Positions 1-37,990 of a stretch of DNA of 37,990 nt are shown piece after piece (position 1 is the stretch's first letter; every line of letters starts with the position of its first letter). The notes below the pieces were generated by a model. That model searched no databases, was not told where the DNA came from, and saw only the letters and a program-made list of their open reading frames with translations. This DNA comes from an uncultured Bacilli bacterium (GTDB lineage Bacteria; Bacillota_I; Bacilli_A; RF39; UBA660). The stretch covers positions 1 to 37,990 of the forward strand of contig CANPZX010000007.1 in assembly GCA_947589195.1 (NCBI GenBank). Reading direction: 5' to 3'. Made by a program: the position numbers and the translations under genes.

Positions 1-366
1 ATGTCAATAATTCTAATAATGGACATTTTCGCTTATTATTAGCGTATTATACTTATTTTTAATAGCGACATTTTCACTAATTATTCATTTTTTAAATAGC
101 GACATTATTACTAATTATTCACATTTTGATTACTTTCTAATTATTTTATGTTTTAAAATAATTGTATAAATAAAATAATTAATTGTCTATATACCCTCTC
201 TAGTTGTCTGCTTTAAGTTTACCACCGCAAATGCATTAAATAAATATCTAAAAAAGTGAAAAAAAAGCGTAAAATTCGGGGGGGGGGGCATTAAAAAAAT
301 AAGGAAATCTATTGAAGAGTAGCAATCAATTTGATAGGATAATTATAGTAAGGAGAAGATAAAAAA
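1..366. other. Intergenic region with degenerate tandem repeat and poly-G leader
   Basis: No credible gene is seen here. Positions 61-126 hold two imperfect copies of a 34-bp unit (AATAGCGACATT...CTAATTATTCA, starting at 61 and 95), with a weaker third trace around 15-40. The stretch 245-366 is the leader of the first TasA-like gene. It contains an 11-G tract at 278-288 and is nearly repeated at 1223-1343 before the second paralog. The rest is plain AT-rich sequence. Confidence 0.6.
278..288 (+). repeat. Poly-G tract (11 G) in the leader of TasA-like gene 1
   Basis: There are eleven consecutive G residues 78 nt upstream of the start codon. A TAAAAT box (270-275) ends 2 nt before the tract, so if it is a -10 element the transcription start would fall inside the tract. 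The same arrangement is seen before the paralog at 1344. Homopolymeric G tracts of this length are classic slipped-strand sites in phase-variable genes. The switching function is inference. Confidence 0.75.
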
Positions 367-1095
367 ATGGAAAGAAAAAATACAATATTATTAACAGTTA
401 TAGCAATAGCTACATTATTAGTAGCAGTAGTTGGAGCTACATTTGCATATTTTACTGCAACATTTAACAAAACTAATCCAAATAATAATACAGTAAGTGC
501 TAAAGCAGCAGTATTGCCAACTGTCACTTTTGATTATGGAAAGGAAATAAATACAGAAGGCACAGATATTTATCCAGGCTACAAATTCTTAAAAGAAGTG
601 ACTGTTAAAGGCGCTTGTACTGATAAAGGAAATGATTGTAAAACAGTTGATTTGGTTTTAACTTTAAAGCCAGATATTGATGATGCATTTGGTACAAATA
701 TTAAATATGCCGTTTATAAATCTAGTACTACTAATTCAAAGGCTGTCACATGTGTTAATAACCCAAAAGAAGTGAATGATACCGAAAATGGTGGAGTAAA
801 ATATTATTATGAAGGAACTTGTACAGCTGGTGAGAGTGTGACTCAATATAATGGTGATAATAGAAATTTTGCGGATGCAATAGATGCTGGTGAAATAGAA
901 GAAACGGGATATTCTGGAACATTTAAAACCAAAGCAAGTTCAGAAACTGTCACAATTTTAATTAGCGATGTGACAGGCAATACAGACGATACTTATTATG
1001 TTGTAGTTGATTATTACAATAATGATAAAGGCAATCAAGATGATGAACAAGGTAAATCTTTTAAAATAACCTTAGATGCTAGTTTACAACCATAG
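367..1095 (+). CDS. TasA/camelysin-like secreted surface protein (paralog 1)
   Basis: This 242-residue protein is probably exported and assembled at the cell surface. Residues 8-23 form a hydrophobic helix followed by GATFAYFTA, the pattern of SipW-dependent signal peptides (TasA, camelysin, CalY). The mature part is acidic and beta-rich, with four cysteines (CTDKGNDC, TCVNN, TCTAG) that are conserved in the next gene and could form two disulfides. It ends in a DEQGKSF...TLDASLQP tail shared with its neighbour. The first 33 residues are identical to paralog 2, while the rest diverges. The start is fixed by GGAG at 352-355. A terminator hairpin follows at 1108-1145, so the gene is probably monocistronic under the poly-G leader. 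A fibre or matrix subunit role is inferred from the family and from the SipW-type peptidase encoded downstream; no exact homolog is recognised. Confidence 0.8.
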   Translation: MERKNTILLTVIAIATLLVAVVGATFAYFTATFNKTNPNNNTVSAKAAVLPTVTFDYGKEINTEGTDIYPGYKFLKEVTVKGACTDKGNDCKTVDLVLTLKPDIDDAFGTNIKYAVYKSSTTNSKAVTCVNNPKEVNDTENGGVKYYYEGTCTAGESVTQYNGDNRNFADAIDAGEIEETGYSGTFKTKASSETVTILISDVTGNTDDTYYVVVDYYNNDKGNQDDEQGKSFKITLDASLQP

Positions 1096-1107
1096 TAAAT
1101 TATATAG

Positions 1108-1145
1108 ATGTTAGAAAATAAGAAATTATTTTTTAGCATTTTTTT
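1108..1145 (+). terminator. Rho-independent terminator after TasA-like gene 1
   Basis: A 14-bp stem with two G-U pairs (1108-1121 with 1126-1139) encloses a GAAA tetraloop. It is followed by a T run at 1140-1145. Confidence 0.75.
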
Positions 1146-1255
1146 AATTAATTGCGAAATAAGAATATCTTCATCTTATACTTATTGTAAAAATTTTGCT
1201 CACATCACAATTTATTAAAAAGTTTCTAAAAAATTGACATTAAAATGTAAAATCT

Positions 1256-1265
1256 GGGGGGGGGG
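1256..1265 (+). repeat. Poly-G tract (10 G) in the leader of TasA-like gene 2
   Basis: Ten consecutive G residues lie at the same place as the tract at 278-288, one base shorter. Upstream are TTGACA (1234-1239) and TAAAAT (1248-1253). TTGACA is too close to TAAAAT to pair with it, so the real promoter is uncertain. The 78 nt between tract and ATG differ from copy 1 at only about three positions. Confidence 0.75.
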
Positions 1266-1343
1266 CATTAAAAAAATAAGGAAATCTATTGAATAGTATC
1301 AATCAATTTGATAGGATGATTATAGTAAGGAGAAGATAAAAAA

Positions 1344-2057
1344 ATGGAAAGAAAAAACACAATATTATTAACAGTTATAGCGATAGCTACATTATTAGTA
1401 GCGGTAGTAGGAGCAACATTTGCTTATTTCACGGCAACATTTACACCAACTAATTCACAAAATAATAAAGTAGAGGCTAAGGCTGCAGTATTGCCAACAG
1501 TTACTTTTGACTATGGAGATACAGTTTCTGCTCCTGCAGACCTTTATCCAGGATATATATTTTTAAAAAAGGTAAGTGTTACTGGAACTTGTACCGGAAA
1601 TAATGAAAGTTGCAAAAATGTTGATTTAGTTTTAACATTAAAACCAGATATTGATGATGCATTTGGCTCAAATATTAAATATGCTGTTTATAAAAGTGCC
1701 AAATCAAATACTGATGCTATTACTTGCCAAAATGATGTTCAAACATCAAATGAAACTGATGGTTCAGTTAAGTATTCATATAATAGTCAATGTACAGTTG
1801 GAGATAATGTTTATAATGGTACTAAATTTGCTGATGCTGTAGAAAAAGGTACTATTACAGATACTGGTTTTACGGGTACTTTTAAAACTAAAAGTCAAGG
1901 AAGTACAGAAGAAACTATTCTAATTGAAGATGTTTCAGGGACAACTGCTGATACTTATTATATTCTTATCGATTATCATAATGATGATTCGAGCAAACAA
2001 GATGATGAACAAGGTAAATCATTTAGTGTTACACTAGAAGCAAATCTACAACCTTAA
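1344..2057 (+). CDS. TasA/camelysin-like secreted surface protein (paralog 2)
   Basis: This 237-residue tandem paralog of the gene at 367 has the same N-terminal helix and GATFAYFTA motif. It keeps the YPGY.FLK.V.V.G.C and LVLTLKPDIDDAFG blocks, the four cysteines and the DEQGKSF C-terminal tail. Between these blocks the sequence is considerably diverged, as expected for surface antigens under diversifying pressure. It has its own poly-G leader and its own terminator (2073-2094), so the two paralogs look independently controlled. Export through the SipW-type peptidase encoded at 4540 is inferred from the signal motif. A role as an alternative fibre subunit is plausible but unproven. Confidence 0.8.
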   Translation: MERKNTILLTVIAIATLLVAVVGATFAYFTATFTPTNSQNNKVEAKAAVLPTVTFDYGDTVSAPADLYPGYIFLKKVSVTGTCTGNNESCKNVDLVLTLKPDIDDAFGSNIKYAVYKSAKSNTDAITCQNDVQTSNETDGSVKYSYNSQCTVGDNVYNGTKFADAVEKGTITDTGFTGTFKTKSQGSTEETILIEDVSGTTADTYYILIDYHNDDSSKQDDEQGKSFSVTLEANLQP

Positions 2058-2423: not shown

Positions 2424-4478
2424 ATGAACAAAGATAAAGAACAATCTATTGAAGAAAATGAAAATACTTTAACTGAAATAGATTATGAAGAACAATATAA
2501 TATATTAATAGAAGAAGAGAAAGAAAAGGAAAGAAAAAAGAATTTGGTTGTATTTATTATATGTATCTTTGTAATTATCTTTTCTGTTTTGGTTTCAACT
2601 TATTCTTTTTATGCTATTTATCAAAATTTAAATGGGCATAAAATGGAATTTAATAAAGATTTAAATGGGGATGGAATACCAGATATTAATATAGATTTTA
2701 ATAATGATCAAGTATGTGATGTTAATTGTGACTATGATGGTGATGATATTCCAGATACTAATATTGATTATGGTGATGATAAGATACCAAGATTTAATGT
2801 TGATACCGATAATAATGGAAAACCTGATTCTAATTTAATGGATCAAGATATTAATAATGATGGGGTTTGTGATTTAAATTGTGATACCGATAATGATGGA
2901 CATCCTGATGTTAATGTTGATATGAATGGCGATGGGATTCCTGATTTAAATATTGATACCGATGATGATGGGGATGCCGATATAGATATAGATACAGATA
3001 AAGATGGAAAACCTGATATAAATATTGATGTTGATAAAGATGAAATTCCAGATACTAATATTGATACAGATGATGATTTACTACCGGATATTAATTTAGA
3101 TTATGAAGGAGATGGCGTACCAGATTTTAATATTGATGATAATGATGATGATATACCAGATCGAAATTTAACTAATCAAGATAATGATAATGATAAAAAA
3201 TGTGATGTTAATTGTGATACTAATGGGGATCATATGCCAGATTTAAATATTGATAAAGATGGTGATGGAGATTTAGATTTAAATATCGATACGGATGATG
3301 ATGGAAAACCAGATTTAAATGTTGATACTAATCAAGATGCTATATGTGATTTAAATTGTTTAAATCCTAATGGTCCTAAAACTAATTTAGATACGAATAA
3401 TGATGGCATACCTGATTTAAATTTAGATTATGATAATGATGGAATACCAGATTTTAATATCGATGATGATGGGGATTATAAACCAGATCGAAATTTAACT
3501 AATCAAGATAATGATAATGATAAAAAATGTGATGTTAATTGTGATACTAATGGTGATGGAATGCCGGATATTAATATAGATATTGATGGAGATGGAGATT
3601 TAGATTTAAATATTGATATTGATGATGATAAAGATCCCGATGTAAATATTGATAGTAATAGAGATAAAATACCTGAAATTAATGTTGATACTGATGGAGA
3701 TAATGTACCTGATTTAAATGTTGATTTAACTGAAGATGGGATACCAGATTTTAATATTGATACTGATGGTGATGGAATACCAGAAAAGAATTTAATGCCT
3801 CAAGATACTGATGGCGATGGAGTATGTGATTTAAACTGTGGTAAAGATAAATATGGGCGACCTCAGGTTAATGTCGATACTAATAATGATCAAAAACCAG
3901 ATTTAAATGTTGATACTGATAAAGATGGTAATCCGGATATAAATATTGATACTAATAATAATGGAATACCTGATTTAAATGTTGATGTTAATGGGGATGG
4001 AACACCAGATATAAATATCGATACTAATAAAGATGGAGTATGTGATATTGATTGTCAAAATGAAGATGTAGCAATTGAAATAGAACCTCCAACTAATAAT
4101 GAACTTATATTATATATTTCTTATAAACAAGGAATAAGTGCTAAAGGCATATTACCAGGTTGGTCTGGTATTCAAGAATTTGTAGTTGTTAATAATTCGG
4201 ATTATCAAGTTACTTATAATTTAAATTGGCAAGATGTTTATAATACCTTTAATAAAGGTAAAGGAATGGTTTATAGTTTATATCGGGATGGGGAAAGAAT
4301 CTTAAATGAATTAGATGTTCCTAGTGGTGATTCGAGACTTTTAGGAAGTATTATTTTACCACCTAAAACAACTCAAAGATATCAAGTTAAATATGAGTTT
4401 AAAGAAACTCATACTAATCAAAATTCTGAACAAGGAAAAACCTTTACTGCAAGTATTGGGGCAGAAATAGCTAATTAA
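2424..4478 (+). CDS. Anchored surface protein with about 35 DxDxDG calcium-loop repeats
   Basis: This 684-residue protein has an acidic cytoplasmic N-terminus (1-40) and a transmembrane or signal helix (41-66) ending VSTYSFYAIY, similar to the SipW motif of its neighbours. A repeat region of roughly residues 80-545 is made of 13-residue units of the form N/D-x-D-G-x-P-D-x-N-x-D. It ends in a beta domain (about 550-684) with an EQGKTF tail like that of the TasA-like proteins. The units resemble thrombospondin type 3 and dockerin calcium loops, so the region is probably a calcium-stiffened stalk. Seven units carry CDxNC or a variant, first Cys at residues 98, 149, 260, 308, 369, 468 and 540. 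Four of these (149, 260, 369, 468) are spaced about 100-111 residues apart within a larger repeat that starts NLxxQD. The signal peptidase gene follows 61 bp downstream. The exact family is not recognised; adhesin or fibre tether is inference. Confidence 0.8.
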   Translation: MNKDKEQSIEENENTLTEIDYEEQYNILIEEEKEKERKKNLVVFIICIFVIIFSVLVSTYSFYAIYQNLNGHKMEFNKDLNGDGIPDINIDFNNDQVCDVNCDYDGDDIPDTNIDYGDDKIPRFNVDTDNNGKPDSNLMDQDINNDGVCDLNCDTDNDGHPDVNVDMNGDGIPDLNIDTDDDGDADIDIDTDKDGKPDINIDVDKDEIPDTNIDTDDDLLPDINLDYEGDGVPDFNIDDNDDDIPDRNLTNQDNDNDKKCDVNCDTNGDHMPDLNIDKDGDGDLDLNIDTDDDGKPDLNVDTNQDAICDLNCLNPNGPKTNLDTNNDGIPDLNLDYDNDGIPDFNIDDDGDYKPDRNLTNQDNDNDKKCDVNCDTNGDGMPDINIDIDGDGDLDLNIDIDDDKDPDVNIDSNRDKIPEINVDTDGDNVPDLNVDLTEDGIPDFNIDTDGDGIPEKNLMPQDTDGDGVCDLNCGKDKYGRPQVNVDTNNDQKPDLNVDTDKDGNPDINIDTNNNGIPDLNVDVNGDGTPDINIDTNKDGVCDIDCQNEDVAIEIEPPTNNELILYISYKQGISAKGILPGWSGIQEFVVVNNSDYQVTYNLNWQDVYNTFNKGKGMVYSLYRDGERILNELDVPSGDSRLLGSIILPPKTTQRYQVKYEFKETHTNQNSEQGKTFTASIGAEIAN

Positions 4479-4539: not shown

Positions 4540-5367
4540 ATGAGAAACAATGATAATTATAATGGTCCAAAAGGTATATTAAAATTCATTGCTACAGCTA
4601 TTTCTTGGTCTGTATTAGTTTGTTTAATCATTGTGGCTTCTTTTTTAGCTTATTATTTAATAAGTACTAAAATATATGAACAAAAAGGGGAAAGATTTGA
4701 ACCATTTATTGCTTTATATAATGTCTTAACTATTAGTATGCTTCCTAATATAGAACCTCAAGATGTCGTGGTAACTTTAAAAGTTAAAGAACCAGATGAT
4801 ATAAAAGTAGGAGATATTATTACTTTTTATTCTACAGCTTCTATATCTAGGGGAATGATTATAACCCATCGGGTTGTTGATATTGTTGAAACAGAAGAAG
4901 GAATAGGTTATAAAACTAAAGGAGATAATAATACTGCTCCAGATACTGCTCCGGCGGAATTTGATAATGTTATTGGTAAAGTAATAATAAAGATACCTAA
5001 TTTAGGTTATATTCAAAATATATTAGCTAGTAAAGCTGGTTGGTTAATAATAATAGTTATTCCGGCTTTATTTATAATAATATCTGATATAGTTAAATTA
5101 TTCCATTTAAATGATATAAAACGAAAGATAACAACAATAGAACAAGAAAATAATAATAAAAAAGAATTAAAAAAACAACAAGAAGAAATAAGAAAGAATA
5201 ATTTAAAGAAAAAGTTAAAGATTGAAAAATCAATTTATGAACCAGATCCATTACCAGTTAAAAAACCGACAAGAATAGTTGTGGGTGAAACATTTATAGT
5301 TTCTAATGATGATGAAGATTATGCTAAAAAGAATAAAAAGAAAAATAAAAAAAATAAAAAACAGTAA
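4540..5367 (+). CDS. sipW: SipW/ER-type signal peptidase I
   Basis: This membrane serine protease probably processes the TasA-like proteins around it. The 275-residue protein has an N-terminal membrane helix (about 17-41), a catalytic Ser66 in TISMLP, and His110 in ITHRVVD. The Ser-His pair, in place of Ser-Lys, marks the archaeal/ER/SipW subfamily. Then come GDNN, a GKV...P block and a second membrane helix (about 167-185). An extra coiled-coil, Lys-rich cytoplasmic tail (190-275) is longer than in Bacillus SipW. The last codon and stop (CAG TAA, 5362-5367) lie inside the left inverted repeat of an insertion sequence. Before insertion the protein would have ended NKK at TAG, now at 6990-6992. 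The enzyme domain is untouched, so it should still work. The start follows GAGAGGG at 4530-4536. Confidence 0.85.
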   Translation: MRNNDNYNGPKGILKFIATAISWSVLVCLIIVASFLAYYLISTKIYEQKGERFEPFIALYNVLTISMLPNIEPQDVVVTLKVKEPDDIKVGDIITFYSTASISRGMIITHRVVDIVETEEGIGYKTKGDNNTAPDTAPAEFDNVIGKVIIKIPNLGYIQNILASKAGWLIIIVIPALFIIISDIVKLFHLNDIKRKITTIEQENNNKKELKKQQEEIRKNNLKKKLKIEKSIYEPDPLPVKKPTRIVVGETFIVSNDDEDYAKKNKKKNKKNKKQ

Positions 5368-5533: not shown

Positions 5534-6877
5534 TTAAGGTAATCTTAATTGAATTTTTCTATTTAAATTAAGAGGTTTTGAGATTGAAGTAAGTGCTTTT
5601 CTAATTAAGTCACTTACTTCATTTTTTGTTGTACCTAAACCTATAATTAAAATATTGCCGTAATTTAGTAGATTAAGTAATGTATGAGCAAACTGAATGA
5701 TTAGATATATATTTTTAGTACCCTCACATCTTTTCGTATAAATATGATTAATATTTAAAATATCCGATTTTTGCTCTTTAAATCCTTTATTCTCTATTTT
5801 CCATCTACATCTTCCAAGTTGAAGTATACTGTTTTTATTTTTAGATGTAATTTCTAAAGAAGTAGCATACGCAAAATTAGTTATTATAACTTCACCAGTT
5901 TTTTCATCAATACTTTGTTCATCATAACTTATAACATTCACAGTATAAAAATCTTTATTTTTTAAATCACCAAATATTATTTCATTTTGATATTCATAAT
6001 TTCCATCTGTTATTTTAATCTCATCAAAATTTCTTTTTATCGATGGAGCATCCGTTTCTTTGTATCTAATAATATATTCAAAATGATTTTTATCACATAA
6101 TTCTAAAAAAGGTCTTCCTAAGTATAGAGCATCACCACCAATAATAATTGGAAGTTTAGGAAATCTTTTTTTAATTTTTTCAAGTAATCGATATGCTGCT
6201 TTTAATTCACAATCTTGTTTATCGAATCTTCTACATGCTTTACCATCTTCATCAATGTAAGTTTCATTTTCAACAAACTCAGTAGCCATTGAAAATGTCA
6301 TATTTCCACAAATTAATTTAGCTTCTAGTGCATAATAAGAATATAAAGTATATTCATTTTCTTCACCTTTATTATATACTTTTGTAATAGCTTGTTCACC
6401 AAGATTTACTCTAGTAGAGTAAAGATTTGTTCCATCAATAACAATATAAAATAAGCCATTAAATCTATATTTATCTAACATTTTAGATCGTATTAATGAC
6501 TTTATAATCATTGTTTGTATTTTTTCTAGTTCTTCAAATTTAATTTCTGAAATGACATTTATAAGTGTATCTTTATGTGGTAATTCTATATAGTTTGTTT
6601 TTAAAATATGATTGATATTTTCTATAACAATATCTGAATTAAAATCTCTACCAATTTTGTTCATTGATTGATAACTTGAACAAAAAGCTAATATTTGAGT
6701 TAGTAAACAAACTTTAATATCATATTTAATATATGATTGATTCCGTGTATCAGTTAATTTATCAATCCAATTAGTAAGTTTAGGAAAATATTGTTTAATT
6801 ATTATTAATAATTCTTCTAATGGATTAACAGCATTTTTTAATTCTCTTTTCATTTTCCTTGTTATTCTTTGTTTCAT
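5534..6877 (-). CDS. DDE transposase, IS4 superfamily
   Basis: This 447-residue enzyme catalyses cut-and-paste transposition of the surrounding element. The RNase-H-like catalytic acids are visible: Asp148 in YIVIDGTN, Asp249 in IIIGGDALY, and Glu362 in CRWKIENKGF, the last in the YREK-like helix typical of IS4-type enzymes. The N-terminal 1-130 is helical and probably binds the ends. The gene is uninterrupted, with an AAGGTGG Shine-Dalgarno 9 nt before the ATG. It is oriented against the host genes. The specific subgroup (IS231-like, ISLre2-like or other) cannot be settled by eye. The intact frame and perfect ends point to recent insertion. Confidence 0.88.
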   Translation of the reverse strand: MKQRITRKMKRELKNAVNPLEELLIIIKQYFPKLTNWIDKLTDTRNQSYIKYDIKVCLLTQILAFCSSYQSMNKIGRDFNSDIVIENINHILKTNYIELPHKDTLINVISEIKFEELEKIQTMIIKSLIRSKMLDKYRFNGLFYIVIDGTNLYSTRVNLGEQAITKVYNKGEENEYTLYSYYALEAKLICGNMTFSMATEFVENETYIDEDGKACRRFDKQDCELKAAYRLLEKIKKRFPKLPIIIGGDALYLGRPFLELCDKNHFEYIIRYKETDAPSIKRNFDEIKITDGNYEYQNEIIFGDLKNKDFYTVNVISYDEQSIDEKTGEVIITNFAYATSLEITSKNKNSILQLGRCRWKIENKGFKEQKSDILNINHIYTKRCEGTKNIYLIIQFAHTLLNLLNYGNILIIGLGTTKNEVSDLIRKALTSISKPLNLNRKIQLRLP

Positions 6878-7595: not shown

Positions 7596-7623
7596 TTGAT
7601 TAAATTTTGTTTTATGTTAATAT
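7596..7623 (+). promoter_or_regulatory. Promoter of the first TasA-fusion paralog
   Basis: TTGATT (7596-7601), a 16-bp spacer and TAATAT (7618-7623) are followed closely by AGGTGAT. The block is repeated before the next paralog at 9362. Confidence 0.45.
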
Positions 7624-7639
7624 TATACTAGGTGATAAT

Positions 7640-9277
7640 ATGAACTTCCAAAGTATTTTTAAAAGAGAAACTAAGTTAATAGTTTATGTTGTTTCTGCTT
7701 TAACAATTGTTTTGATAGGTTCTACTTATGCTTTATTTTTCAAAGTTAAAGAGAATAGTAATAATCAAGTAGTTCAAGCTGGAGCTTTAATTATGGAGTA
7801 TCCCAAGAGTGGTGAGTTAGTAGTAGCTGAAGGGGACGCGAAAGATAATAATTGTTTATATCCAACTGATGATGAAGATGGAAATACTAATGGATGTTCA
7901 TATACTTTTACGATGACTAATAGTGGTAGTTTACCAGTAGAATATACTTTATATTTATATAATGATATAACTGAATTACCAGAGGGTGGTAAGTTATTAG
8001 AGATAAAAAATATAAAACATACTTTAAGAAAAAGATTAGTTAAAGAGGGAGAAGAAGCTACTCTAGTAAATAATGCAGCTAGTTTAGATTCCTTAAAACA
8101 AGATACTGAAAAAGGAACTATATTAGAAAAAGAAGTTATAAATGTAGGGGAATCAATTGAATTTAGTTTAAGAGTATGGATAGATGAAGATGCCCCTAAT
8201 GGGGATGATCCAAATAGTATTGTTGGTAATTATGTAAGACTTAAAATAAATGCAAGTAGTACTGTTTATGAAGAACCAAATTATGTAACAGAGATATTAA
8301 AAAAACTAGTTTCAGAAGATAATAATGGTGTTTGTCCAGCATCTGGGATAGTTCCCGTAACTCATACTGATGCAACAATTTCAAACGTTCCTGAATATGA
8401 AACATTGGGTTTAGATTATACTAGAGTACAAGCAAATTTAAAAATGACCGAATACCGTTATTGTGGAGAAAATCCCAATAATTATGTAACATTTAATGGC
8501 GAAACAGCTGGTTGGCGAATAATCGGGTTAGTTAATACTCCGGAGGGACAACGAATTAAATTAATTCGAGCAACTCCATTAGAACCATTAATGGCATGGA
8601 ATAAAAAAGAAACTTCAAATAATGATTGGAGTGTTTCAGAATTACAAAAGGTGCTAAATAAAGGCGGAGCTTATTATGAACGTCAAAATGGAAATTGCCC
8701 GGCTGGTGAAAATGGAGAAACTATTGAATGTAACTTTAGAGATGTTGGGTTAACCGGAGAAGCCAAAGAAATGATTGATACTATTACTTGGAATTTAGGA
8801 GGATCTGCACCTAGTTTATATGGTGTAACTCTTACTAGACTGATGTATGATGGAGAAAGGGGAATAAAAGTATATACTGATCAAGAACGGCCATTATTAT
8901 GGAAAGGCGAAATAGGATTATTGTATCCAAGTGATTATGGATACGCTACTGGAGGCGGTAGTAATTATAATCGAGACTTTTGTGTTAATAAGCATTTATA
9001 TTATTGGAGATACCAACAATATCAAAATGATTGTGCATACACAGATTGGTTAATAAATAGAGATTTTTCTCAATGGACTATTACACCTGGTTCTGATAGT
9101 TCTACTTCCTCACATGTTTTAGATAAATATGGTGAAGTTCTTTTAAACTATTCAGCTGCTTCTTATTATCAACATGGTGTTTCACCAGTTTTATATTTAA
9201 AACCTAATGTTGAATTTGCTAGTAAAGATTCCGTTGGTTCACCAGAAAATCCTTATGAATTAGTTTTAAATGAATAA
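7640..9277 (+). CDS. TasA-like surface protein with a second C-terminal surface domain (copy 1)
   Basis: The start is placed at ATG 7640, preceded by AGGTGAT, because the paralog at 9408 begins with the same MNFQSIFKRETKL. The product is 545 residues. A signal helix (about 14-31) ends GSTYALFF, a SipW-type motif. A TasA-like beta domain (about 40-215) contains YPTDDEDGN and SYTFTMTNSGSLP. A linker leads to a C-terminal domain (about 270-545) with GWRIIG, WSVSELQKVLN, LYPSDYGYA and SPVLYLKPNV. That domain resembles the WR-II-G/VLYLK domains common on gut Firmicute surface proteins, perhaps near DUF6273, but the family is not confirmed. Several cysteines suggest disulfides. A terminator follows at 9284. 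A fibre-tip or adhesive subunit is a reasonable guess, not shown. Confidence 0.75.
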   Translation: MNFQSIFKRETKLIVYVVSALTIVLIGSTYALFFKVKENSNNQVVQAGALIMEYPKSGELVVAEGDAKDNNCLYPTDDEDGNTNGCSYTFTMTNSGSLPVEYTLYLYNDITELPEGGKLLEIKNIKHTLRKRLVKEGEEATLVNNAASLDSLKQDTEKGTILEKEVINVGESIEFSLRVWIDEDAPNGDDPNSIVGNYVRLKINASSTVYEEPNYVTEILKKLVSEDNNGVCPASGIVPVTHTDATISNVPEYETLGLDYTRVQANLKMTEYRYCGENPNNYVTFNGETAGWRIIGLVNTPEGQRIKLIRATPLEPLMAWNKKETSNNDWSVSELQKVLNKGGAYYERQNGNCPAGENGETIECNFRDVGLTGEAKEMIDTITWNLGGSAPSLYGVTLTRLMYDGERGIKVYTDQERPLLWKGEIGLLYPSDYGYATGGGSNYNRDFCVNKHLYYWRYQQYQNDCAYTDWLINRDFSQWTITPGSDSSTSSHVLDKYGEVLLNYSAASYYQHGVSPVLYLKPNVEFASKDSVGSPENPYELVLNE

Positions 9278-9283
9278 CAAATT

Positions 9284-9313
9284 AAAGTATCAGAAGAAAT
9301 TTTGATACTTTTT
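9284..9313 (+). terminator. Terminator after TasA-fusion copy 1
   Basis: AAAGTATCA (9284-9292) and TGATACTTT (9303-9311) form a 9-bp stem with a 10-nt loop, followed by a short T run. Confidence 0.7.
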
Positions 9314-9361
9314 ATAATGATTAAAATAACTAAAAAACCCCTAAATTCAAATTCTATCATC

Positions 9362-9391
9362 TTGATTATATATTCTATTTTGTGGTAATAT
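9362..9391 (+). promoter_or_regulatory. Promoter of the second TasA-fusion paralog
   Basis: TTGATT (9362-9367), an 18-bp spacer and TAATAT (9386-9391) match the block upstream of 7640. The spacer is two bases longer here, so expression strength may differ. Confidence 0.45.
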
Positions 9392-9407
9392 TATAGTAGG
9401 TGATAAT

Positions 9408-10859
9408 ATGAACTTCCAAAGTATTTTTAAAAGAGAAACGAAATTAATAGTTTATGTTGTTTCAGCTTTAACAATTGTATTAATAGGTTCTACATATGCT
9501 TTATTTTTTAGAGTTAAAGAAAATACTAATAATCAAGTAGTTCAAGCTGGAGCTTTAGTTATCGAATATTCTAATAATGGTAATGAAGTAGTAGCTGAAG
9601 GAGATGCTAAAGATAATAATTGTTTATATCCAACTGATGATGAAGATGGAAATCTTAATGGATGTTCATATACTTTTACCATGACTAATAATGGTAGTTT
9701 ACCTGCAGAATATACTTTATATTTAACAAATGATTCAAGTGATTTACCAGAGAATGGTAAATTATTAGAGATAAAAAATATAAAACATACTTTAAGAAAG
9801 AAATTAGTTAAAGATGGAGAACAAACTGTTGAAGTAAATAATGCTAAAAAGTTAAGTGAATTAGGACAAGATAACGAAAAAGGAACTATATTAGAAAAGA
9901 ATGTTATAAATGTCGGGGAATCAATTGAATTTAGTTTAAGAGTATGGATTGATGAAGATGCTCCTCATGAAGGTGCCCCAGACAGTATTGTGGGTAATTA
10001 TGTAAGACTTAAAATAAATGCAAGTAGTACTGTTTATGAAGGGACCTTAGCTGATGAGATAAAATTTTTAGCAGTTGATGAGAGTAATATAACAGCAGGA
10101 GATAGTGGAATTGTTAAAGTTAATACGGAAAGTGTTAGTCCTGTAGAATTGAATGGTCTTGATAGTGAAACAGAAGATCAAGTAGAATATCGGTATTATG
10201 GAAGTAATCCTAATAATTATGTTAGATTTAATGATGAGTTATGGCGGATAATTGGCCTAGTTAATACCCCTGAAGGACAACGAGTAAAAATAATCAAAGC
10301 TAGTCCTTTAGATTTAAAATTATCTTGGCCAAATGCAAATATTACGGAAAACACTTGGGAAAATTCCGAATTACAAAAAGTATTAAATGAAACATATTAT
10401 AATAAAACTTCTGGTGAGTGTACAATTTTCCAAAATGAGACGTGTGATTTTAGTAAAGTAGGTTTAAGCGAAGAAGCTAGACAATTGGTAGATAGTATAA
10501 CTTGGACATTAAATAGTTTAACTTGGAAAGGGAATATTGCTTTAATAAATCTTACAGATTATAAAAATGCTACTAGTGGTGGAGAGACTAATAATAGAAG
10601 TACTTGCTTAAGTGATTCTAGTTGGACTGAAAAGCAAGAATGTTTTCAAAATGATTGGTTAGCAAGTGAAGAAAATCAATTAACTTTAGATGCTTATGTT
10701 TCTAATAGTGAAGCAAATAATATTACTGCAACTGGATCTATAGGCAGTGATTCTAATAGTACATATACTATTTATCCAGCTCTTTATTTAAAATCTGATG
10801 TATTAGTTTTAAATGGTGAGGGTAGCATTGAAAAGCCATATATTTTAGATCAAAAATAA
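9408..10859 (+). CDS. TasA-like surface protein with a second C-terminal surface domain (copy 2)
   Basis: This 483-residue tandem paralog of the gene at 7640 has a nearly identical N-terminal half, including MNFQSIFKRETKL, GSTYALFF, YPTDDEDGN and the GNYVRLKINASSTVYE block near residue 210. The C-terminal domain is shorter and clearly diverged. It keeps LWRIIG, ENSELQKVLNETYY, LINLTDYKNA, QNDWLA and PALYLKSDV. The promoter and ribosome-binding region (TAATATTATAGTAGGTGAT) are also conserved. The pattern is a conserved anchor/fibre module with a variable display domain. Export through the SipW-type peptidase is inferred from the signal motif. Confidence 0.75.
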   Translation: MNFQSIFKRETKLIVYVVSALTIVLIGSTYALFFRVKENTNNQVVQAGALVIEYSNNGNEVVAEGDAKDNNCLYPTDDEDGNLNGCSYTFTMTNNGSLPAEYTLYLTNDSSDLPENGKLLEIKNIKHTLRKKLVKDGEQTVEVNNAKKLSELGQDNEKGTILEKNVINVGESIEFSLRVWIDEDAPHEGAPDSIVGNYVRLKINASSTVYEGTLADEIKFLAVDESNITAGDSGIVKVNTESVSPVELNGLDSETEDQVEYRYYGSNPNNYVRFNDELWRIIGLVNTPEGQRVKIIKASPLDLKLSWPNANITENTWENSELQKVLNETYYNKTSGECTIFQNETCDFSKVGLSEEARQLVDSITWTLNSLTWKGNIALINLTDYKNATSGGETNNRSTCLSDSSWTEKQECFQNDWLASEENQLTLDAYVSNSEANNITATGSIGSDSNSTYTIYPALYLKSDVLVLNGEGSIEKPYILDQK

Positions 10860-24425: not shown

Positions 24426-24950
24426 ATGGAGAAAAATAATAAAAATGTAATTATTCAATCGGTAATCCTAGTTGCATCGTTCATACTTATCGCCGTTTCT
24501 ACAAGTTATGCTTTTTTTACGGCAAACTTTGAAACCACAGGTGATAGTGGGGTATCAGCTACCGCGGCAGATTTAAAAGTTAAATTTACGGATGGGGCTT
24601 TAATAAACGCAACTAATATGATTCCTGGGGATGTTGCTACGAAATCATTTACAGTTCAAAATACGGGTAGTCAAGCTATAAAATTTAAAATAGTTGTTAA
24701 AAATGTTGTTAATGGGTTTAAGAGACCTCAAGATTTAAAAGTAGAAATCAAAGAAGGAGATAGTGTAATTAAGACTGGTGAAAGTTTTCCCACCGCAGCT
24801 GGTCCCATAAGTGATTTAATTACTATTGCAGTTGGAGAAACAAAAAGTTATGAGATAACCATTACATATGTTAATGACCCTGATAATAATCAAAATGAAG
24901 ATATGGAAAAAAACGTAAGTGCGCAAGTATTTATTGAAGCTGCAGCTTAA
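24426..24950 (+). CDS. TasA/camelysin-like secreted protein (lone copy)
   Basis: This 174-residue protein has a hydrophobic helix (about 9-27) ending STSYAFFTA, the SipW-type motif. A beta-sandwich follows with the family pattern: MIPGDVATKSFTVQNTGSQAIKF, then GETKSYEITITYVND and QVFIEAAA. It is the closest of the window's proteins to the classical CalY/TasA subunit in size, and has no cysteines. It sits 19 kb from the main surface locus, between housekeeping genes, under a strong promoter of its own, so it may be an abundant major subunit. The peptidase encoded at 4540 is the likely processor. A fibre role is inferred from the family. Confidence 0.8.
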   Translation: MEKNNKNVIIQSVILVASFILIAVSTSYAFFTANFETTGDSGVSATAADLKVKFTDGALINATNMIPGDVATKSFTVQNTGSQAIKFKIVVKNVVNGFKRPQDLKVEIKEGDSVIKTGESFPTAAGPISDLITIAVGETKSYEITITYVNDPDNNQNEDMEKNVSAQVFIEAAA

Positions 24951-37188: not shown

Positions 37189-37221
37189 AAAAGGTATGTC
37201 TAAAAAAAGCATATCTTTTTT
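37189..37221 (+). terminator. Terminator before the relaxase gene
   Basis: AAAAGGTATG (37189-37198) pairs with CATATCTTTT (37210-37219) with one G-U pair, followed by a T run. Confidence 0.6.
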
Positions 37222-37255
37222 ATTATGTGAAATTAGAAAGAGAGGAATGATAATT

Positions 37256-37990
37256 ATGAGTTTAAATTATGGAATATTTAGAAGTGAACCGATAATGACT
37301 ATCAATGATTTAGCCCAAATTGGATCACACAATAAAAGAGAAAAGAAAGCATATAAAAGTAATAAAGATATTAAATTAGAATTAAGTAAAAATAATATAG
37401 AATTAGTACCCTTAGCAGAAAAGTATGTTAAGGGTTTTAAATTGAAAGTAAAAGATTATGAAAAAGAACACAACGAAAGAATGAAAACTGAACGACCTGA
37501 AAGAAAAAGAACTTTTAATGAAATGCTAAATAAGTCTAAAAGTGTTGTTGCCGATGAATTATTATTTACAACAACAAATAAATTTTTCAATGATAAAAGT
37601 AAAGAAGAAATAATAAGATGGGCTAATACTTGTATGGATTTTGTTTATAATGATTTAGGTTATACAAAAGAACAAGTTTTACATGCAACAATACACATGG
37701 ACGAATTAACACCACATATTCATTGTGTTGTTATACCACTTGTTAAAAAATTAGATAAAAGAACAAATACAGAAAGATACACTATATCTAAAAAGCAATA
37801 TATCAAAGATAATATCCATTTATCAGAATTACAAGATGTTTATAACGTTAGATTAAGGGAAGCAGGTTTTGAACTTGAACGAGGTATTAAAGGTAGCGAT
37901 AGAAAACATCAAAAAGTAAAAGAGTTTAAGAAAACAACTAGATATTTTGAGGAAAAAGTAACCACTATCAATAAAGGTTTAGAAGAGTCT
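37256..37990 (+). CDS. MobV/Pre-type relaxase, partial (runs off the window)
   Basis: This plasmid mobilisation relaxase nicks and joins the origin of transfer. The visible 245 residues begin MSLNYGIFRSEP after AGAGG. They contain the N-terminal motif SHNKREKKAYKSNKDI (about 24-39) and the metal-binding histidine motif HMDELTPHIH (147-156, H-x-D-E-x-T-P-H-x-H), both hallmarks of the Pre/Mob family. The coiled C-terminal part begins near 225 and is cut by the window edge. Codons ending in C (CAC, GAC, ATC, TAC) appear more often than in neighbouring genes, consistent with transfer. It marks an integrated mobilisable element or plasmid-derived island. Confidence 0.88.
   Translation, partial: MSLNYGIFRSEPIMTINDLAQIGSHNKREKKAYKSNKDIKLELSKNNIELVPLAEKYVKGFKLKVKDYEKEHNERMKTERPERKRTFNEMLNKSKSVVADELLFTTTNKFFNDKSKEEIIRWANTCMDFVYNDLGYTKEQVLHATIHMDELTPHIHCVVIPLVKKLDKRTNTERYTISKKQYIKDNIHLSELQDVYNVRLREAGFELERGIKGSDRKHQKVKEFKKTTRYFEEKVTTINKGLEES

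Follow-up and report, generated by a model that had tools for sequence, protein, structure and literature searches.

Poly-G contingency loci have been described chiefly in pathogens such as Neisseria, Helicobacter, Campylobacter and Treponema. In Neisseria meningitidis, poly-G tracts lie in the promoter spacer of porA and in the reading frame of lgtG (PMC3639595). Repeats upstream of the core promoter also control transcription: the length of a T-tract at Helicobacter pylori sabA shifts the core promoter relative to upstream AT-rich elements and gives a graded output (PMC4081817), and the repeat number at N. meningitidis nadA changes the spacing between distal and proximal elements (PMC2791445). 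In Treponema, poly-G length upstream of the tpr genes and Tp0126 is reported to modulate transcription (PMC10118025).

We compared with these systems a stretch of 37,990 nucleotides, hereafter the window, which is contig C7 of a 1.35-Mb metagenome-assembled genome (MAG; 88.6% complete) of an uncultured Bacilli bacterium and in which G11 and G10 tracts precede two tandem surface-protein genes. The porA and lgtG architectures are those of the other tracts of this genome, the window tracts being in neither position. As at sabA, the homopolymer of the window stands 5′ of the −35 box, but the sabA T-tract adjoins the −35 whereas the window G-tract is 23 bp upstream of it. The window shares with nadA a repeat, presumably variable here, 5′ of the promoter; nadA, however, has a tetranucleotide TAAA repeat, the repressor NadR and IHF, in contrast to a G-tract and a model free of regulators. 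In the Treponema pallidum tpr subfamily and Tp0126, poly-G precedes the transcription start of surface-protein genes, whether paralogous or single (PMC10118025), as it precedes the predicted starts in the window; unlike Treponema, the window belongs to Gram-positive-type Bacilli and encodes SipW-type secreted proteins. Finally, the Bacillus subtilis TasA/TapA/SipW system likewise brings a signal of the SipW type together with a SipW-like peptidase within one cluster (NCBIfam models), but the window proteins score below the TasA and TapA equivalog cut-offs, and our literature search for poly-G control of the B. subtilis system found none.

Two G tracts upstream of tandem SipW-type genes

The preliminary description of this DNA had reported the two tracts at the same place in two leaders, 78 nt before the start codons, in DNA where even runs of four G would be rare. 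The gap is indeed 78 nt in both leaders (ATGs at 367 and 1344), and the tracts exceed chance: G8 matches number 7 in the window versus 0.06 in shuffled sequences, none of 100 shuffles reaching 7. Runs of four G turn out to be less rare than that (55, with 13 runs of five), but the tracts are exceptional all the same, being set apart from the run-length distribution because the window has no runs of 6–9 G. The 23 bp on the 3′ side of the two tracts are identical. A TAAAAT sequence ends 2 nt before each tract, at 270–275 and 1248–1253, as had been noted; with 210 occurrences in the window against 220 expected, it carries no weight alone, since it is found at chance frequency. Note that the one-base difference between the two paralogs is not by itself evidence of switching.

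As in contingency loci, the window pair is longer than chance allows, as judged from the shuffles, and is placed near a promoter from which an effect on expression is predicted. The tracts are outside any coding frame and no −35/−10 pair spans them; a coding role of the lgtG type and a promoter-spacer role of the porA type were both rejected on these grounds, and the pair is a third tract position beside the coding and promoter-spacer placements.

The two genes are paralogous surface genes, as previously proposed (Table 1), and the first 33 residues of their products are the same. The signal is of the SipW type, for gene 1 by TIGR04088 and for gene 2 by the shared N-terminus, and a signal peptidase is encoded nearby, as in SipW-dependent secretion; this peptidase, which scores 102.7 bits against the SipW model NF046067, below its cut-off of 190, is expected to process the products of genes 1 and 2. 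The aspartate-repeat protein of the cluster gave only low-complexity matches to Sdr/Clf repeat regions. Homologs of gene 1 are present in 23 of the 60 genomes searched, its own included. Gene 1 scores 15.8 bits against the TapA model (cut-off 80), and its predicted fold is a weak model (mean pLDDT 60) that aligns with a TasA fibre at Z 6.3 (rmsd 4.0, 134 aligned residues), among many tied beta-sandwich rows. Foldseek with this low-confidence model returned no match at E ≤ 0.001, a search of solved structures by sequence gave no match, and a protein search of genomic contigs with gene 1 gave none confirmed.

Table 1. Coordinates of genes, tracts and leader elements in the window.
Feature	Position	Strand	Basis
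GTAAAAT upstream box of gene 1 (containing the previously noted TAAAAT)	269..275	+	comparison of leaders
G11 tract of gene 1	278..288	+	sequence
−35 box TTGAAG of gene 1 (predicted)	312..317	+	alignment of homologous leaders
−10 box TAGGAT of gene 1 (predicted), 17 nt after −35	335..340	+	alignment of homologous leaders
Predicted transcription start of gene 1	near 347	+	from predicted promoter
Ribosome-binding site AAGGAG of gene 1	350..355	+	sequence
Gene 1, 242-aa SipW-type surface protein	367..1095	+	TIGR04088 20.1 bits, cut-off 19
GTAAAAT upstream box of gene 2	1247..1253	+	comparison of leaders
G10 tract of gene 2	1256..1265	+	sequence
−35 box TTGAAT of gene 2 (predicted)	1289..1294	+	comparison of leaders
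−10 box TAGGAT of gene 2 (predicted), N17 spacer	1312..1317	+	comparison of leaders
Predicted transcription start of gene 2	near 1324	+	from predicted promoter
Ribosome-binding site AAGGAG of gene 2	1327..1332	+	sequence
Gene 2, 237-aa paralog of gene 1	1344..2057	+	67% identical
684-aa aspartate-repeat surface protein, same cluster, no tract	2424..4478	+	sequence
SipW-like signal peptidase I	4540..5367	+	TIGR02228 105.5 bits, cut-off 51.85

Several other features of the window were observed. Its first 232 nucleotides, at the contig start, are a repeated sequence with pieces common to the ends of contigs C9 and C76 and to C57:8445–8537, where the repeat adjoins a poly-G surface gene; they probably represent one terminus of a mobile element that landed upstream of gene 1. 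An IS4/IS1380-like transposase (5534–6877, minus strand), below the cut-offs of the models, adjoins the signal peptidase gene. Two more paralogous ORFs with a SipW-like N-terminus (MNFQSIFKRETKLIVYVV...) lie at 7607–10859, with no tract and no Pfam match, and a TasA/camelysin-like protein is encoded outside the cluster at 24426–24950 (Peptidase_M73, 27.5 bits, cut-off 22.5). The contig end cuts a gene for a Mob_Pre plasmid mobilisation enzyme (37196–37990).

Predicted promoter geometry of the tract-bearing leaders

The leaders of homologs in the genus and family display TTGnnn-N17-TAnnAT, or a close variant, followed by a ribosome-binding site resembling TAAGGAGG. This conserved promoter was found in nearly all comparison leaders, which comprise that of a paralog in the same genome and those of homologs from other genomes; the paralog (C9:212-937, minus strand) has TTGCAT-N17-TAACAT and no tract. 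The window promoters are predicted 3′ of the tracts because the leader-conserved promoter stands at the same place, between tract and ATG. Each of the predicted −35 and −10 boxes keeps 4 of 6 consensus bases, and a generic promoter scan of the window did not list the proposed promoter.

Of the 19 comparison leaders, 12 have a GTAAAAT-like box 11–20 nt upstream of the −35, where shuffles average 0.26 and reach 4 at most, a count to be read with the box being short and AT-rich and the leaders sharing ancestry. A k-mer test on 17 non-redundant upstream regions agrees, more weakly, with a conserved upstream box: TGTAAA is found in 8/17, versus 1–2/17 further upstream, the best shuffle giving 7. 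In the window, the distance from the box to the −35 is 36 nt for gene 1 and 35 nt for gene 2, longer because the tract plus about 9 nt intervene, which amounts to about two helical turns more than in the relatives. Each tract thus lies between an upstream element and the −35, the geometry of a distal-spacing rheostat as read from a predicted promoter and a short box, and about 59–69 bp before the predicted transcription start. Counting the G-run length in related genomes had been suggested earlier as a check on phase variation; none of the homologous leaders of other species has a tract, and a search of viral contigs for the same leader found none.

The displacement of the upstream box relative to the leaders of relatives is what leads us to propose a spacing rheostat. 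Slipped-strand gain or loss of G in the tract would change the distance between the GTAAAAT box and the core promoter, each G turning the box by ~34 degrees relative to RNA polymerase, so that transcription of genes 1 and 2 would be tuned separately, in the manner of a rheostat and not of an on/off frame switch. On this view tract length would differ between members of the population, and the distance would be the decisive variable. We give about an even chance to this reading, in which the window tracts belong, as contingency repeats, to a poly-G phase-variation system of the whole genus and act in this way on the core promoter.

Other readings of the pair were weighed as well. The tracts may be phase-variable through a protein-binding site or an unusual G-rich DNA structure instead of through spacing, which we consider unlikely. 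G tracts of this length class are under selection elsewhere in the genome, and in a genome of another genus of the family (G025) a conserved element with a fixed G8 beside TATAAT looks like a binding site; that element, however, has other flanks and a constant length, unlike the G11/G10 of the window.

It is less probable still that the tracts are passive, slippage-prone DNA that spread or grew with no effect on genes 1 and 2. Their position outside the core promoter, and the lack of a tract in the paralog of the same genome and in the homologs elsewhere, are what this would predict, and a placement seen solely in one tandem pair of paralogs might be no more than a passive by-product. Yet both tandem copies retain a long tract with an identical 3′ flank, whereas no other G run of the window exceeds 5, and most other tracts of the genome sit at places that control expression.

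The preliminary description had placed the transcription start, predicted from the TAAAAT box, inside the tract. On this model TAAAAT would be the −10 box, and changes in length would affect either initiation, stuttering of RNA polymerase included, or the untranslated leader. A start 4–8 nt beyond a box that ends 2 nt before both tracts would in fact fall within them. However, besides the chance frequency of TAAAAT, the promoter scan shows no −35-like hexamer 16–18 nt 5′ of it, the promoter common to the homologs stands downstream of the tract, and TAAAAT matches the upstream element of tract-free relatives. As a −10 box it was rejected on its chance frequency and its placement as an upstream box, and we regard a start within the tract as improbable.

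The spacing rheostat remains the reading that we prefer for the window pair. Phase variation of this pair is plausible, a good inference that is strengthened by the genome-wide system described below.

Poly-G tracts across the genome, genus and family

A scan of the whole genome gave 80 places with at least eight G, the modal length being 10. Most are near the start of long ORFs, and these ORFs fall into a small number of paralogous families predicted to be surface proteins. One of these families starts ATGGAAAAAATAGCAAAT-Gn-TTATTTAAGAGTAAG; in two more the leader is hydrophobic and ends in GTTCT-Gn-TATTTTAGT or a near variant. In the surface families, a tract of G9 (or G12) puts the start codon in frame with the long ORF. 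G10 is the usual length, and the other two frames hit stops within a few codons. The ORFs behind out-of-frame tracts nevertheless stay open, many for 300–970 aa, which one would hardly expect of sequences that are never expressed. A natural in-frame member (L064) carries DUF285/PARCEL repeats, a type described in surface proteins of Mycoplasma and other microbes (PMC2996958). Tracts are also found inside sugar-related genes, encoding acyltransferases, a sugar-transfer ATP-grasp protein and a PMT_2-like protein. Two tracts, L015 (spacer 19) and L071 (spacer 18), lie between TTGACA and TATAGT or TATAAT and are of the porA type, most other tracts of the genome being of the lgtG frame type. The genes for MutS and MutL are intact; loss of mismatch repair was therefore rejected as the cause, and slippage raised by it is no part of the explanation.

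The only hint of length variation within a population comes from one contig, C70 (5.5 kb), which carries at both ends the same gene start with 157 identical flanking bases and G10 at one end versus G9 at the other (L072 and L073). This may reflect a tandem copy, circular DNA or a population with mixed tract lengths.

Tracts are present in every one of the 21 other genomes of the genus, 2–60 in each. Genera of the same family have 0–26 and other families of the class mostly 0–4, with 9 and 22 in one genus. Tracts were classified in four genomes representing four species, one genome each (the present one, G017, G003 and G020), with flanks read from stretches around the tracts, so that counts are nearly complete for G003 and incomplete for G020. 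The coding and promoter-spacer placements recur in the three others with different flanking sequences. Most tracts are at the 5′ end of surface-family genes, in the signal-peptide region, and about 19 tracts lie between −35 and −10 boxes, with spacers mostly of 15–19 nt; tracts inside TTGACA..TATAAT spacers are present in all four species. A DNA pattern for one coding family was found in 94 stretches, nearly all from uncultured Bacilli/Tenericutes MAGs, a wild-mouse MAG being among the carriers.

Two kinds of arrangement were observed besides these. In G017, L113 and L195 hold G11 or G10 a few codons downstream of the ATG of a short frame; a G+C-rich stretch and another ATG-initiated gene come next. 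These two loci fit none of the three tract placements. In G025, at least 11 copies of a conserved CATAAATC-G8-TACTTTTAATnAnATATAATG sequence, almost always with exactly G8, stand just 5′ of genes (L233, L237, L239, L241, L243, L247, L249, L251, L253, L259 and L261); the element has the look of a family of promoters or operators, more a binding site than a switch.

Tract length is uniform across the four species, G10 accounting for 160 of 210 tracts. Among the 120 classifiable tracts with a frame that is ON at 9, 13 are in the ON state versus one third expected (p = 1.6e-8), a value that overstates independence because family members share ancestry and that includes a heuristic choice of start codon. 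Mid-gene tracts, including those of sugar-related genes, have the same usual length and are mostly in frame at 10. The usual length therefore looks the same everywhere, and the gene classes differ in the frame that it leaves open.

This uniformity, with few G9, could also mean that G10 is not OFF in the coding families, and that programmed transcriptional or translational slippage gives steady low expression. We find this very improbable: every species has G8, G9 and G11 members, and the promoter-spacer tracts are left unexplained. The uniform length needs no slippage function, since the sugar-related genes share it and most of them are in frame. A sequencing or assembly artefact, such as two-colour-chemistry poly-G or homopolymer miscalls, might be suspected from the MAG assembly and the many tracts near contig ends and may leave single tract lengths off by one, but it is hardly credible as the source of tracts that lie within contigs, at the same codon position in dozens of paralogs, and that recur in MAGs obtained independently from several sample sets, some of them labelled rabbit or mouse.

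Frame tracts together with promoter-spacer tracts are textbook architectures of phase variation. What had been proposed for two genes, poly-G phase variation, is strongly supported by sequence comparison as the way of working of the genome and genus (about 80 tracts, their frames, the promoter spacers), and stays an inference for the window pair, which joins them as a distal-spacing kind if our reading of it holds. We are about half convinced of a further step, in which this genus of uncultured gut Bacilli would run its surface by poly-G slippage: dozens of surface genes per 1–1.5 Mb would be out of frame at 10 and one base from in-frame, the sugar-related genes mostly in frame, with frames matched to the resting length in a way that gives every gene class a default state of its own. 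A literature search, covering few subscription papers, found no earlier description of this poly-G system.

The genus-wide network of surface genes that are out of frame at the usual length is a larger finding than the window pair. Here poly-G tracts abound in gut Bacilli that are uncultured and probably commensal and whose MutS and MutL genes are intact, and the tracts are linked to SipW-type surface proteins. Should this be confirmed, existing metagenome reads could tell for each tract whether its surface gene is on in a host, and the same reads could test whether the resting length sets the default state of each gene class. Judging from its genome, the organism seems equipped to switch its surface through minimal changes in the length of G runs.
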